The notes under the pieces were generated by a model, which was not told where the DNA came from, made no database searches, and was given only the letters and a program-made list of their open reading frames with translations. A stretch of DNA of 20,130 nt, from positions 1-20,130 of IMG/VR virus record IMGVR_UViG_3300024948_000004. One strand, 5' to 3'. Made by a program: the position numbers and the translations under genes. This DNA is from a virus. Of this stretch, positions 207 to 9,392 are shown one piece after another (the stretch's first letter is position 1; each line of letters begins with the position of its first letter).

Positions 207-1235
207 TTAACCTGCACCGGTTGAACCTATAGCCAGCTGCCAGAAACCATAGCCGCCCGCAGCGCGCGCTTCAGCACCAAACTTGAATTTCTTGCGGTTA
301 AATACATCGTCATTCTCAGCGCTTGTTTGCTCAACAAACACCGGGGCTTTACGTTCCTGATAAATGAATGGCTTAACTGCTTTTGTCGTATCCAACAGGA
401 ACCATGCAGTGTCAGATGTGATTCGTGCATCAACTACGACCTCGGCAGTACCTTTGTATGGGTTTGCCTTGCCATCATCCAGACGATCATTATTCACAAT
501 TGCTAGGGCAATATGCTCAAGTGCAGGGCCTACTAACAGCACGTTTGGCGTGATGTTGAGTGGACGGCCTTCGTCATCCTTGAATTTACGCATTGCAGTA
601 CGTGCTGCACCATAGCTGGCAATTGCGGCAGCCTGTGTTGCAACAGAAAGCGCAACCGTTAATTTGTTAGATACGCTGGCACCGGCGACCACGTGATCAG
701 TATCAAAGAAATACTGGCCATCAAAACAGGTGTTAGCAAAGCCGCCGTTAACCAGATCAATCACTATTTCATCAGGCAGTTGCGCTGCAGACTCACCGGC
801 CATTTGGGCTTGTGGACCATAGATGCCCAGCTGGTCATCTTCAATGTCGTTGCGATCAACTTCTACTGTGGCCTCCCAGTCTTTATTTGGGATTGTGTAT
901 TTAGCAGCCTCAAGCGATTTAACGTTTTTATCGCCAACCCATGCACGCATTTTTGGAAACTTACTTAACCAGGCATAGTCATTCTGGCTGGTAGTCGAAG
1001 TGATCTTCATTGCCAGTTTTTGCCATACTGAAGGCGCAGCGCTAAAGGCATTGTTAAAAGTGGTTTTCAGGCTGATAAAGACATTCCCAATGCTTTCTTT
1101 ATTTACCAGCATGCCAAGCATGCCGCCTGTCATGAGCGTTTCATTGCTAAACTCATGCGCATGCAGTGGCACTGCAAACGTCGCGGCCATTGCTGCAGCT
1201 GCAGCAAGACCTAATACTAAAATTCGTGATTTCAT
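207..1235 (-). CDS. T: Mu-like major head (capsid) protein, gpT family
   Basis: Forms the icosahedral capsid shell. The 342-residue product has the gpT-family N-terminal region: LKTTFNNAF around residue 56, then a stretch matching the family pattern of small/polar residues followed by YAWLSKFPKMRAW (about 87-99) and VEVDRNDIEDDQLG further on. Head-module order supports it: protease, decoration-like gene, capsid. The oddity is the first 28 residues, which look like a Sec signal peptide: basic MKSR, a long Ala/Leu core, and an AHA motif. The first ATG has a strong AGGAG Shine-Dalgarno six bases upstream, whereas the internal ATGs at 1133, 1121 and 1112 have none that is convincing. The segment is therefore probably translated. 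Confidence 0.93.
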   Translation of the reverse strand: MKSRILVLGLAAAAAMAATFAVPLHAHEFSNETLMTGGMLGMLVNKESIGNVFISLKTTFNNAFSAAPSVWQKLAMKITSTTSQNDYAWLSKFPKMRAWVGDKNVKSLEAAKYTIPNKDWEATVEVDRNDIEDDQLGIYGPQAQMAGESAAQLPDEIVIDLVNGGFANTCFDGQYFFDTDHVVAGASVSNKLTVALSVATQAAAIASYGAARTAMRKFKDDEGRPLNITPNVLLVGPALEHIALAIVNNDRLDDGKANPYKGTAEVVVDARITSDTAWFLLDTTKAVKPFIYQERKAPVFVEQTSAENDDVFNRKKFKFGAEARAAGGYGFWQLAIGSTGAG

Positions 1236-1281
1236 TGTGTTCTCCTGAAAGTTAATTTACTGATTGAACCTAAAGCTTTAA

Positions 1282-1680
1282 TTACTCGACCCAGATGCCG
1301 TCTGCATCAACCTGAATCACCTTGCCAGCTGCCGAGCGGGTATTACCACCGTTGGTTTTGGCTACAGTCTGGTCGTCTACGATGTAGCAGGTAGCGCCAA
1401 GATCAGCTTGCACAACTGCATCAGCCCCGTGGTTAAGCCATTTAAAAGCCTTGCCGCGACGCACTAAAATGCTTTTGTCACCGGCAGCACCAGCCGCGTT
1501 ATCAACCCACTCTTCAGCTCGGCCAAAGTATTTAAGTGTGGTGGCCACCGCACCAGGTGTTGCAAAACCTGCTGCGTTAATCGCCACCAGTGAACCTGCA
1601 TAAATCTTTACTGCTGCAACCGGTACTGATACCAACTCACCATCTTTCAACGGTGTATTACGGTCATTTGCAAGTGCCAT
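1282..1680 (-). CDS. Probable capsid decoration (cement-like) protein
   Basis: A 132-residue product from the ATG at 1680, chosen because AAGGAG lies seven bases upstream; a longer reading from 1704 lacks such a site. The protein is rich in Val, Ala and Gly, with alternating hydrophobic stretches such as GELVSVPVAAVKIYAGSLVAI that suggest a small beta-barrel. It lies between the protease/scaffold gene and the major capsid gene, where Mu-like phages often carry a small head structural protein. A cement or decoration role is inferred from position and fold-like pattern; no diagnostic motif is visible. A hairpin with a 4-base loop lies just upstream at 1698-1715. Confidence 0.6.
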   Translation of the reverse strand: MALANDRNTPLKDGELVSVPVAAVKIYAGSLVAINAAGFATPGAVATTLKYFGRAEEWVDNAAGAAGDKSILVRRGKAFKWLNHGADAVVQADLGATCYIVDDQTVAKTNGGNTRSAAGKVIQVDADGIWVE

Positions 1681-1697
1681 TTCTTCTCTCCTTGATA

Positions 1698-1715
1698 GCC
1701 TCATTTACATGAGGC
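1698..1715 (-). promoter_or_regulatory. Hairpin with GUAA tetraloop upstream of decoration gene
   Basis: GCCTCAT (1698-1704) and ATGAGGC (1709-1715) pair perfectly. Read on the minus strand the loop is GTAA, a GNRA-type tetraloop. It lies between the stop of the protease gene and the Shine-Dalgarno of the decoration gene. It lacks a following T-run and is more likely an mRNA-stabilising or processing element than a terminator. Confidence 0.6.
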
Positions 1716-1742: not shown

Positions 1743-2312
1743 TTAAGCGCTGGCGCTCAAAGTCTTTTTGTAGTCTTCAGGTGATACGCCCATCTGTTTG
1801 CATACGGCTAATTGCGATTCAGTCAGGTCGGTAACACCGTCGCCATCGGGAATCTTGCCGCCGGTTTGCGTGTTGGTTAAAGCCACAATTGGTTGGGCTG
1901 TATCAAGATAAGATTTCAAAGCGGCGATATCTTTAGCGCCAAGTTCACGCGCCCAAGCTTCCTGCGCTGGCAACAATCGGCTACTAGATAAAGCGACCGT
2001 TACCAGGTCTTCTACTTCGCCGTCGTTAATCTGTTTGTTAAGCGCTGCGAGTTGCGTTTGCAGGTCTTGCATGACTGATAGCGGCACAAACTTGGCAGGG
2101 TCAGGGGTTTCAATCTGCGCGGTCAGGCTTGCGATTGATTGATGCTGTTCCCTTAAGTGGTTAGTCAGGTTAAAGCTTGTCGCAGCCGTAGCGTTGTCAG
2201 CTTTAATCAGATCTACCGCTTTATTGACCTCAGTCAAAATGTCATCAGCAGTGGCCAAAGTTGGCAGGTTGAACATCCAGCGCAAGCGCTCTAGTAATTC
2301 GTCTAAGTCCAT
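1743..2312 (-). CDS. Probable nested scaffold protein (Mu Z-like), in frame within I
   Basis: An in-frame ATG at 2312 (MDLDELLERLR) is preceded by GGAGAG about nine bases upstream, better than the Shine-Dalgarno of the full-length gene. The 189-residue product would be the helical, charged C-terminal half of the protease polypeptide, rich in Leu, Gln and Glu and ending in a Lys-containing tail. In phage Mu the scaffold gene Z is nested in frame inside protease gene I, so the same arrangement is expected here. The start is inferred from the ribosome-binding site and helical composition. Confidence 0.6.
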   Translation of the reverse strand: MDLDELLERLRWMFNLPTLATADDILTEVNKAVDLIKADNATAATSFNLTNHLREQHQSIASLTAQIETPDPAKFVPLSVMQDLQTQLAALNKQINDGEVEDLVTVALSSSRLLPAQEAWARELGAKDIAALKSYLDTAQPIVALTNTQTGGKIPDGDGVTDLTESQLAVCKQMGVSPEDYKKTLSASA

Positions 2313-2843
2313 TGTTAAACTCTCCGTGTTGGTTAAAAGTTTGGAGGCTGCCGCTACGGCAACCTCACTCATGCCGTCTAATGCCGGGTTGTTGGTGATT
2401 GCGCCAAGCAGTACGCTCTCGACTGCACCAGTCTTTTTGCTGTAACTGAATACGGGGGAGAAATAGAGGTACTCTTTGGCTTCGATGTGTGCTTTGGCTG
2501 CGTCGGTCCATTCAACGCCAATCGCATAAAGACCATCGCCTTCACGCCATTCAAGCTGCTTAAACCAACCGGCGGCTGGGGCAGGCTTGCCATTCTCTGC
2601 GGCTAAAAGGGTTTGATGTTCGTAGTCAATCACCAGACGGTTTTGACGGGCTGATACTTCAGCAATGATTGAGGCTGCAATGGTGGCGTCGATATACCAG
2701 GCTTTAACATCTGTTGGCCTGCCATCTGTGGCACGAAACTCACCGGCAGGAAGAATCTGCAGATCGGCACCGGTAGTTAATTCAAAACTACAAGCCGCGA
2801 TTGCGGCGTTAATCAGCTTGCGTGGGTTTTGTTTGTGTTTCAT
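1743..2843 (-). CDS. I: Mu-like head maturation protease (protein I, gp32-like)
   Basis: Processes head proteins during capsid assembly. From the ATG at 2843 the product is 366 residues; in-frame ATGs at 2852 and 2858 would add three or five residues. The N-terminal half carries the Mu I-like pattern: a short N-terminal region with FELTTGADLQILPAGEF, then RLVIDYEHQT, AAGWFKQLEW, YLYFSPVFSY and LLGAITNNPALDGM. The C-terminal half is helical and charged, as expected for a scaffold. It is the first gene of the second late unit. No good Shine-Dalgarno precedes any of the starts (at best GGTG two bases before 2843). A conserved dyad lies 37 bases upstream of 2843, and a CCCAT-GAAA-ATGGG hairpin (2848-2861) covers the alternative starts. 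Confidence 0.88.
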   Translation of the reverse strand: MKHKQNPRKLINAAIAACSFELTTGADLQILPAGEFRATDGRPTDVKAWYIDATIAASIIAEVSARQNRLVIDYEHQTLLAAENGKPAPAAGWFKQLEWREGDGLYAIGVEWTDAAKAHIEAKEYLYFSPVFSYSKKTGAVESVLLGAITNNPALDGMSEVAVAAASKLLTNTESLTMDLDELLERLRWMFNLPTLATADDILTEVNKAVDLIKADNATAATSFNLTNHLREQHQSIASLTAQIETPDPAKFVPLSVMQDLQTQLAALNKQINDGEVEDLVTVALSSSRLLPAQEAWARELGAKDIAALKSYLDTAQPIVALTNTQTGGKIPDGDGVTDLTESQLAVCKQMGVSPEDYKKTLSASA

Positions 2844-2896
2844 GGCACCCATTTTCATGGGGCATGGGGTTTAGTGCGATACTGAGTGGCTTCAGT
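2844..2896 (-). promoter_or_regulatory. Late promoter 2 (head genes): dyad and -10-like element
   Basis: A dyad, ACTGA-N6-TCAGT, occupies 2881-2896 and is an exact 16-bp copy of the one at 9377-9392. It lies 37 bases before the ATG at 2843. A -10-like GAAAAT lies at 2856-2851 on the minus strand, about 37 bases below the dyad centre. No -35 element is evident. This matches the known Mu middle/late design, in which a Mor/C-family dimer binds near -43 and replaces the -35 contact. Activation by the Mor homologue is inferred. Confidence 0.6.
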
Positions 2897-8216: not shown

Positions 8217-8828
8217 TTACCACCTCACCCATGCGCCGGTGCCAATAAAATAATCAGTGTCTTGCCCGTTACCAAGCTGCTGATCTACCGAGCCGATTAA
8301 GCCAAAATGCAAAGCCTTAACCTGTAGCAACCCTTGCTTGGCTTCGAGCCGAGCCGTGGGGGTGCCGTTTTTAATCCCCATGTACATGCCTGCTTCACCG
8401 TGGGTATCTACGGCCAGCCAAGGCAGCGGGTCACGTTTAACAAAGGTCTGGCTCTCGCCGGTTTCGGTGTTAATCAGCGTGGTGATGGTTTGTGGATGGT
8501 CGTCAGCCGGTACCTGGTTAGATGCAATTACATCAAGATCAGGGTTGTCCTGAATAATCTGCGGCAGTTTGATGGTGTTTTTAACGGCGGCAGGGTAAAC
8601 CTTAACGGTCTTGGCCTTGATTGGCTTGGCTACCGGCGTCACCTTTTTAACCTCTGGGGCTGGCGTGGCAACAATGTTTAAGCCGACGGGTGCGGTTGGC
8701 AGCGTTGATTGATAGCGCTGGTAGGCGTGATTAATGCCATAAATAGCGCCAATAAGCACAGCAGCTACAAACAGCCACATGAAGGCTTCTGTTCGTTTTA
8801 GATTATCCAACAATGGGTTGCCCTCCAT
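8217..8828 (-). CDS. Membrane-anchored lysis-cassette protein, unknown
   Basis: About 203 residues from the ATG at 8828; a TTG at 8849 is the alternative. A short cytoplasmic N-terminus is followed by one membrane helix (MWLFVAAVLIGAIYGINHAY, about 17-36), a Pro/Lys/Val-rich linker, and a C-terminal domain with Gly-rich turns ending in GTGAWVRW. The predicted topology is N-in with a long periplasmic part. It overlaps the endolysin gene by 26 bases, so a lysis role is plausible (spanin-like or endolysin helper), but I recognise no family and see no Rz/Rz1 pair. Confidence 0.7.
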   Translation of the reverse strand: MEGNPLLDNLKRTEAFMWLFVAAVLIGAIYGINHAYQRYQSTLPTAPVGLNIVATPAPEVKKVTPVAKPIKAKTVKVYPAAVKNTIKLPQIIQDNPDLDVIASNQVPADDHPQTITTLINTETGESQTFVKRDPLPWLAVDTHGEAGMYMGIKNGTPTARLEAKQGLLQVKALHFGLIGSVDQQLGNGQDTDYFIGTGAWVRW

Positions 8829-9339
8829 CTGCCGGAGCGACAGGCGCAATGGGCGTTAAACACATGGCGCGTTCAGCCTGGCGGCGCTTGGTCAACCCAA
8901 ACACCGGCACCAGCTTGCCGTTTACCCTGGCTTTGTTGTAAGCCAGTATGCGGTCACACGCGGCGGTGTAATTGCCTTCGTTGAGCTCATCAATCAGGTA
9001 CTTGTTTTTAGGCAGGCCAGACTTGCACACGGTGCCTGCGCCCACGTTGTAGGCGAGCGATACAAAAGCGTTGTATTGGTTTTGGTTCATCGGTACATTC
9101 ACGCAGGCCAGCACAGCCTTGCCGTGTGCGGTTAGCTCTTGCTTGAGCAGCGTATCGCACTCTTTTTTGCCGTAGGTTTTGCCCTTGATAATATCCGGGC
9201 CGGTGTAGCCATTGCATACTGTGAGTACTCCGGCAATGTCGTGATAGGGCTTTAACTCGGTGCCCTCCCAGCCGCCAACAAAGGCGAGTAGGGATGCACT
9301 GGTAACGCCTGCTAATAGTATTTTGTATGATGCTCTCAT
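8803..9339 (-). CDS. Endolysin, GH24 lysozyme with signal-anchor (SAR-type) N-terminus
   Basis: Hydrolyses the N-acetylmuramic acid-N-acetylglucosamine bond of peptidoglycan at lysis. From the ATG at 9339 the catalytic triad is Glu25, Asp34 and Thr40, with the same spacing (+9, +15) as T4 lysozyme. Residues about 7-22 (ILLAGVTSASLLAFVG) are weakly hydrophobic and rich in Ala, Ser and Gly, as in signal-anchor-release endolysins. Six Cys residues could form redox-sensitive disulfides. A GTG at 9378 is an alternative start but lies inside the promoter dyad. There is no Shine-Dalgarno before 9339. It is the first gene of late unit 1. Confidence 0.92.
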   Translation of the reverse strand: MRASYKILLAGVTSASLLAFVGGWEGTELKPYHDIAGVLTVCNGYTGPDIIKGKTYGKKECDTLLKQELTAHGKAVLACVNVPMNQNQYNAFVSLAYNVGAGTVCKSGLPKNKYLIDELNEGNYTAACDRILAYNKARVNGKLVPVFGLTKRRQAERAMCLTPIAPVAPADGGQPIVG

Positions 9340-9392
9340 GTAACCGATGGTATGGCATGAGGCTTGTGAATGCGCCACTGAGTGGCTTCAGT
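9340..9392 (-). promoter_or_regulatory. Late promoter 1 (lysis/packaging genes): dyad and -10-like element
   Basis: ACTGA-N6-TCAGT at 9377-9392 is identical over 16 bp to the dyad at 2881-2896. It lies 37 bases before the ATG at 9339, exactly the same distance as at the other site. TACCAT at 9352-9347 (minus strand) is a -10-like hexamer in the same position as GAAAAT at the other promoter. The site follows a strong terminator, as expected for a new transcription unit. Binding by the Mor-family protein is inferred. Confidence 0.62.

Follow-up and report, generated by a model that had tools for sequence, protein, structure and literature searches.

It is generally assumed that both folding and assembly of the capsid proteins of tailed phages take place in the cytoplasm. 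In HK97, an N-terminal segment of the capsid protein, the delta domain, is removed during maturation. A phage coat protein that does carry a leader is the M13 procoat, in which the leader is followed by an acidic loop and a second hydrophobic segment; the latter forms a complete transmembrane helix, and M13 coat protein stays in the membrane once mature. We are not aware of a signal peptide on any HK97-fold capsid protein, and among the matches listed in a search of the open-access literature (titles and the starts of abstracts) no precedent for a signal-like leader on such a protein was found. The T4 prohead is described as assembling on the inner membrane, via the portal protein gp20, gp40 and YidC (PMC9958956).

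The protein described here belongs to the Mu-like gpT family (PF10124), to which the capsid proteins of Mu, JBD30 and JBD5 also belong. The window, that is, the whole stretch of 20,130 nucleotides of viral DNA that was analysed, shares with these phages the capsid body, the HK97 fold and the gene order with the gpI protease. The solved homologues lack a leader, their first residue being the canonical one, whereas the gpT of the window has 41 residues more.

Results

The minus-strand ORF at positions 207 to 1,235 encodes a product of 342 residues with the N-terminus MKSRILVLGLAAAAAMAATFAVPLHAHEFSNETLMTGGMLGMLVNKESIGN, which we assign, from profile matches and an AF2 model, as a gpT-like major capsid protein with an N-terminal extension. 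The PF10124 (Mu-like_gpT) match starts at residue 51 (E 5.2e-97; 325.1 bits against a cut-off of 20.1) and that to phrog_371 (major head protein) at residue 42 (E 2.5e-107). Most phage matches found by tblastn also start at residue 42, with which residue 1 of Mu gpT (9jod) is aligned. The canonical body, as delimited by PF10124, phrog_371, AF2 and Foldseek, comprises residues 42-342 (207..1112, minus strand), and residues 1-41 (1113..1235, minus strand) are surplus over the canonical Mu-like start, in agreement with the initial annotation, which had placed the usual gpT start near residue 42. In the AF2 model (49 rows; mean pLDDT 86.5), residues 2-20 form a helix, residues 22-39 have a pLDDT below 50, and the capsid fold follows. 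Its best Foldseek matches among PDB chains are the JBD30 procapsid (8rkx; E 3e-17, TMq 0.51) and the Mu capsid (9jod; E 2.6e-16, TMq 0.44).

The order of segments in the capsid body of the window differs from that in Mu and JBD30. Residues 55-183, 277-339 and 214-279 match residues 15-143, 169-231 and 245-303 of JBD30 gpT, the last two segments being swapped relative to JBD30 and Mu. These two types of gpT are each found with and without a leader. The leader signature occurs on the Mu/JBD30 order in L128, L135, L294, L295, L296, L367 and L368 (L numbers denote loci of our sample), and relatives of the same order that have no leader are L297 (81% identical to L135) and L310 (79% identical to L128).

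Relatives were collected from four scans, for which the proteins of the window, L102, L049 and L079 served as queries, and from one genome scan and four annotated phage loci. Classification was obtained for 275 of 292 loci, amounting to 210 distinct proteins. The other 17, with no anchor motif or no match, were left out; re-examination of 11 of these found L135 and L223 to be extended, and L074, L200, L215, L219, L241 and L266 were outside the re-examination. Among the distinct relatives, 156 of 210 have the canonical residue as their first, and a Shine-Dalgarno sequence (SD) is present there in nearly all of these; 50 begin 36-56 residues upstream of it. The extension is thus conserved in a part of the family only.

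One may ask whether the extension lies outside the functional protein, with true initiation at Met39 or Met42 or with neutral drift of upstream coding sequence. In-frame ATGs are indeed present in the window at residues 35, 39 and 42, but these, like the one at residue 16, have 0-3 matching SD bases in a scan of L001, the protein of which is 100% identical to that of the window, whereas in non-extended relatives a strong SD stands at precisely the canonical start. The first ATG, in contrast, is preceded at 6 nt by AGGAG (1242..1246, minus strand), which bears out the earlier statement that it has the best SD and that the downstream ATGs lack one. The same holds in the family: the upstream start has 4-7 matching SD bases in 49 of the 50 extended relatives (three in L128), and at their canonical position the SD is absent or weak. 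Moreover, the residue at that position is Met in 25 of the 50, Leu in 23, Val in one and Ile in one, so that initiation from an ATG is impossible there in half of them. This loss of the canonical Met provides the strongest evidence that the extension belongs to the capsid precursor. Neutral drift is also at odds with the recurrence of the pattern in 50 distinct sequences and with dN/dS values below 1 in the five measurable pairs (0.09-0.44 for the leader, 0.05-0.14 for the body), which indicate that the leader is under purifying selection. SD placement and Met loss rule out an internal start or an upstream artefact for the family, and a non-functional extension is barely credible. Since a good SD is found at the first ATG only and the Met of the usual start is lost in 25 of 50 relatives, it can be concluded from the sequences that the extension is translated from the first ATG. 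The same observations speak against the case raised in the initial annotation, in which nothing upstream of Met35-42 would be translated.

Within the window, the leader begins with a basic n-region, MKSR (residues 1-4; 1224..1235, minus strand), followed by a hydrophobic core, ILVLGLAAAAAMAATFAV (residues 5-22; 1170..1223, minus strand), that overlaps the AF2 helix. A linker free of Lys and Arg, HEFSNETLMTGGMLG, occupies residues 27-41 (1113..1157, minus strand), and a second, Gly-rich hydrophobic block, apparent in the hydropathy, extends over residues 34-44 (1104..1136, minus strand) into M42-L-V-N. Directly before the linker there is a putative but weak signal-peptidase site, LHA|H. The AHA cleavage-like motif reported earlier is absent, residues 24-28 reading L-H-A-H-E. 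Of conventional (-3,-1) pairs, those closest by are L24/A26, T19/A21 and A15/A17, which makes the cleavage site of the window weaker than that of most relatives; the site nearest to the end of the core is L-H-A, and the highest-scoring one, A-M-A, lies inside the core. The description of the N-terminus as signal-peptide-like, a basic tetrapeptide and then a hydrophobic core, was otherwise upheld, both by these residues and by the relatives.

A simple signal-peptide rule is passed by 48 of the 50 extensions (the failures being L044 and L045), whereas in 200 rounds of shuffling a mean of 5.9 and never more than 12 of the 50 pass; several of the 50 distinct leaders are close kin (e.g. L044/L045, L051/L054 and L232/L262). 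For the window's own extension, 112 of 2000 shuffles pass. The rule is loose, and yet none of the 156 non-extended gpT proteins is flagged by it. In six other ORF clusters near the capsid gene it flags 34 of 965 N-termini, taken from longest-ORF starts, a background of ∼3.5% (12/200, 22/194, 0/194, 0/157, 0/114 and 0/106 per cluster).

The charges are distributed asymmetrically along the leader. Lys and Arg make up 99 of 337 residues in the n-regions of the family and none of 750 in the 15-residue cores. In the linkers, from core to canonical start, they make up 7 of 1133, compared with 10.7% in the capsid body (binomial 2.5e-45, overstated since the rows are related); Asp and Glu contribute 83 of these 1133 residues. 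In most relatives the candidate site has small residues at -3 and -1, mostly as an AxA-like site, and the best-scoring predicted site (49 of 50 have one) is followed by a median of 22 residues free of Lys and Arg (range 2-36). Averaged hydropathy reveals two blocks separated by an acidic dip at -10 from the canonical start, where 25 of 50 leaders have Asp or Glu; the second block covers -8 to +2 (11 residues). Position -1 is Gly in 46 leaders, Gly41 in the window, Ala in three and Leu in one. The three atypical leaders, L044, L045 and L114, all have Ala there. The second block and the conserved Gly suggest that the chain returns or stalls and that it has a hinge or a point of processing. The leader of L013 contains a lipobox-like LSAC (VLSAC within LLVLSACDITHAG) and might be read as a lipoprotein signal.

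Most members appear to carry the full set of sequence features of an export signal: with Sec/LepB signal peptides the leader shares the basic tip, the uncharged core and the following stretch free of Lys and Arg, and in most cases probably the small -3/-1 residues. It differs from them in its conserved Gly-rich hydrophobic block, in the weak cleavage site of the window and in being part of a capsid protein for which cytoplasmic assembly is expected. Taken at face value, these features could mean that gpT is exported partly or wholly via Sec, yielding a periplasmic or secreted form (as a decoy, or with an effect on the envelope) while another pool assembles. In outline, this is comparable to hepatitis E virus ORF2 or to the hepatitis B precore protein. 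Hepatitis E virus ORF2 is described as existing in both secreted and capsid forms (PMC6472401). However, the extended relatives have no conserved internal start from which a cytoplasmic pool could be made, the canonical Met being absent in 25 of 50 and the SD absent or weak, and export of a large share would cost virions. We therefore consider genuine export quite unlikely.

The leader is present in some relatives and absent from others that are equally close. Bodies with and without it are 92.7% (L116/L117), 92.4% (L001/L005), 90.4% (L147/L148) and 90.4% (L152/L149) identical. In the alignments of L116/L117 and L152/L149 its presence or absence behind a conserved SD-ATG is clean; for L147/L148, L029/L033 and L001/L005 the agreement is less clear, owing to differing upstream regions or to an imperfectly positioned alignment gap. 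On a tree from a quick LG+G4 search (206 rows, 51 extended), built on a single gene that may recombine, the leader label needs 27 changes, at least 15 of which are forced by well-supported branches, versus 45.8 with shuffled labels. L238, at a contig edge, counts as extended in this tree only, and L115 and L282, at edges that cut off the leader, were removed from it. In addition, the 39-residue leaders of L044 and L045 are 97% identical and their bodies have diverged (dS 1.3), suggesting that this leader was exchanged between bodies. The extension is therefore a recurrent, optional module in many Mu-like phages rather than a one-off, and the earlier idea of an acquired coding extension is supported, provided that it is widened to include loss. 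It could also have been standard and long known in close homologues; it does occur in dozens of relatives, but it is absent from equally close ones, and among the literature matches listed we found no description of it.

A benefit that is only conditional would suit this history. Docking at the membrane might, for example, keep the monomers of the capsid protein, or their N-terminus, out of reach of a host sensor or of premature assembly, and both the frequent gain and loss (at least 15 forced label changes) and the faster change of the leader than of the body are consistent with such sequestration. Yet no defence system or target was identified, and the pattern also suits relaxed constraint on signal peptides, so that this explanation appears very unlikely.

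The titles of leader-bearing records name Nitrosovibrio, Nitrosomonas, Sideroxydans, Herbaspirillum, Rhodocyclaceae, Gallionella, Nitrosospira and Mariprofundus; hosts of leader-bearing prophages that are named to the strain are Mariprofundus ferrooxydans PV-1, Nitrosomonas communis Nm44, N. halophila Nm1, Nitrosospira sp. NpAV and Herbaspirillum sp. ST 5-3. In 399 genomes from one order, 4 of 20 readable gpT loci bear the leader, the seed included. Leader-bearing named phages were sought by tblastn (214, 215 and 81 records matched), and no match listed begins in the hydrophobic core; with the query of extension plus junction no record reaches 80% coverage (81 matching records), and short divergent leaders can escape tblastn. 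Mu-like gpT genes were also seen in 57 plasmid records, 25 of them predicted to be conjugative (e.g. from Yersinia ruckeri, Klebsiella and Citrobacter), and are probably Mu-like prophages on plasmids; the matches listed for these begin at query residue 46 or later and have no leader.

Upstream of gpT lie a phrog_1731 virion structural, decoration-type capsid gene (1282..1704, minus strand) and a gpI-like prohead protease/scaffold gene (1743..2858, minus strand). Genes of the phrog_1731-type cluster accompany 49 extended and 151 non-extended gpT loci, and gpI is upstream of gpT in both kinds alike. We looked for a neighbouring head gene that tracks the leader and found no partner among the ORF clusters within ∼3.3 kb of gpT. 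The gpI ORF appears longer in extended loci (median 368 versus 344; rank-sum P 7.6e-5), but we base no claim on this difference, as longest-ORF starts are uncertain and close pairs are mostly alike (336/335, 371/375, 391/377 and 408/396), the exceptions being L147/L148 (355/326) and L110/L022 (375/235, L022 having a short ORF). Two further observations were made by eye. At positions 1-132, near-repeats of ∼60 bp, rich in Ala, Glu and Lys when read on the minus strand, lie at the start of the gene after gpT, which runs past the window edge, and an endolysin-like ORF (8803-9378, minus strand) has an N-terminal hydrophobic segment resembling the signal-arrest-release type.

The presence of gpI bears on what we regard as the main rival explanation, next after a transient membrane leader: a cytoplasmic assembly peptide, similar to a short scaffold or delta domain, placed in the procapsid or at its edge and cut by protease I, its likeness to a signal being incidental. 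Hydrophobic helices would then cluster within capsomers, and the cut would fall at the conserved Gly|Met/Leu junction. The protease is encoded in the window, the conserved -1 Gly (46 of 50), directly before the canonical start, has the look of a hinge or of a site of processing, and trimming of the capsid protein at its N-terminus by a prohead protease is common among tailed phages (the conversion of T4 gp23 to gp23* is described in PMC9958956). Nevertheless, while the T4 gp23 peptide and the HK97 delta domain are N-terminal segments that are removed, the gpT leader is signal-like and occurs with a separate gpI scaffold. That a separate scaffold is present follows from the nearly full-length PF10123 match of gpI (profile positions 2-330 of 330), whereas a fused scaffold of the HK97 delta type replaces the separate scaffold gene. 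This full-length protease/scaffold is there in extended and non-extended loci alike, near-identical capsids do without the leader, and a role in the interior has no evident need for a tip rich in Lys and Arg and a linker poor in them. An assembly peptide thus seems somewhat unlikely.

Discussion

The architecture of the leader, its charge asymmetry and its patchy presence can be read directly from the sequences. The basic tip, the uncharged core, the mostly AxA-like site and the nearly Lys/Arg-free stretch favour engagement of the membrane, and of the roles proposed initially, membrane tethering would best fit the charge pattern (the positive-inside rule is described in PMC9360617). The reading that we favour, and to which we give an even chance, is that the leader is an optional membrane-targeting segment by which nascent gpT docks at the inner membrane, its removal preceding maturation or taking place in the course of it. 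Contact with the membrane, topology, cleavage and its site, and the benefit, which may be delayed or membrane-localised assembly, are inferred.

According to this model, the basic tip and hydrophobic helix of nascent gpT would enter the insertion machinery of the host (Sec and/or YidC) while the N-terminus stays cytoplasmic. The linker, short, acidic and free of Lys and Arg, would cross or dip into the membrane, and the second Gly-rich block, and then the first Lys, would return or stall the chain, so that the capsid domain remains cytoplasmic and is tethered through its N-terminus. Subsequently, the leader would be cut off, behind the hydrophobic core by the signal peptidase of the host, at the conserved Gly|(Met/Leu)-(Leu/Ile)-Val-Asn junction by the protease of the phage, or in both ways. 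Removal would leave roughly the N-terminus of the non-extended relatives, with the N-arm free for its usual change on maturation. In JBD30, the N-arm (residues 6-25) is described as a helix in the procapsid that unfolds on maturation, with N-arm hooks that meet at pseudo-twofold axes, across capsomers (PMC11445458). A hydrophobic leader of 41 residues, if retained, should get in the way here, which argues for its removal.

Similarities to known systems are partial. Like M13 procoat, the gpT leader has an acidic loop between two hydrophobic segments and basic residues outside them, but its second block, of ∼11 residues, is below membrane-spanning length, and a 300-residue HK97-fold domain follows. 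The T4 prohead is membrane-linked until maturation, as is proposed here, but in T4 the contact is made by the portal and not by every subunit.

Several points speak against a membrane leader. The second block is too short for an ordinary transmembrane helix, L044 and L045 fail the signal rule and L114 is also atypical, and the signal-peptidase site of the window is weak. A fully effective signal peptide would yield a periplasmic capsid protein, useless for packaging. No flanking head gene tracks the presence of the leader, and since bodies that are 90-93% identical lack it, capsids of that type can be assembled without it. One may speculate, as a tentative possibility, that the leader turns the capsid protein of some Mu-like phages into a precursor inserted in the membrane, and that icosahedral, DNA-packaging heads are built in a procoat-like manner from membrane-tethered subunits which processing sets free, the leader having been gained or lost many times.

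For annotation, leader-bearing gpT proteins could be trimmed by start calling, and in predicted secretomes they would figure among the exported proteins. As natural matched pairs, more than 90% identical, exist with and without it, the question of what the leader does is directly testable. That a recurrent signal-like leader, maintained by selection, is borne by the structural protein of greatest abundance suggests that these phages either couple head assembly to the membrane or use the export machinery in a way not yet described.
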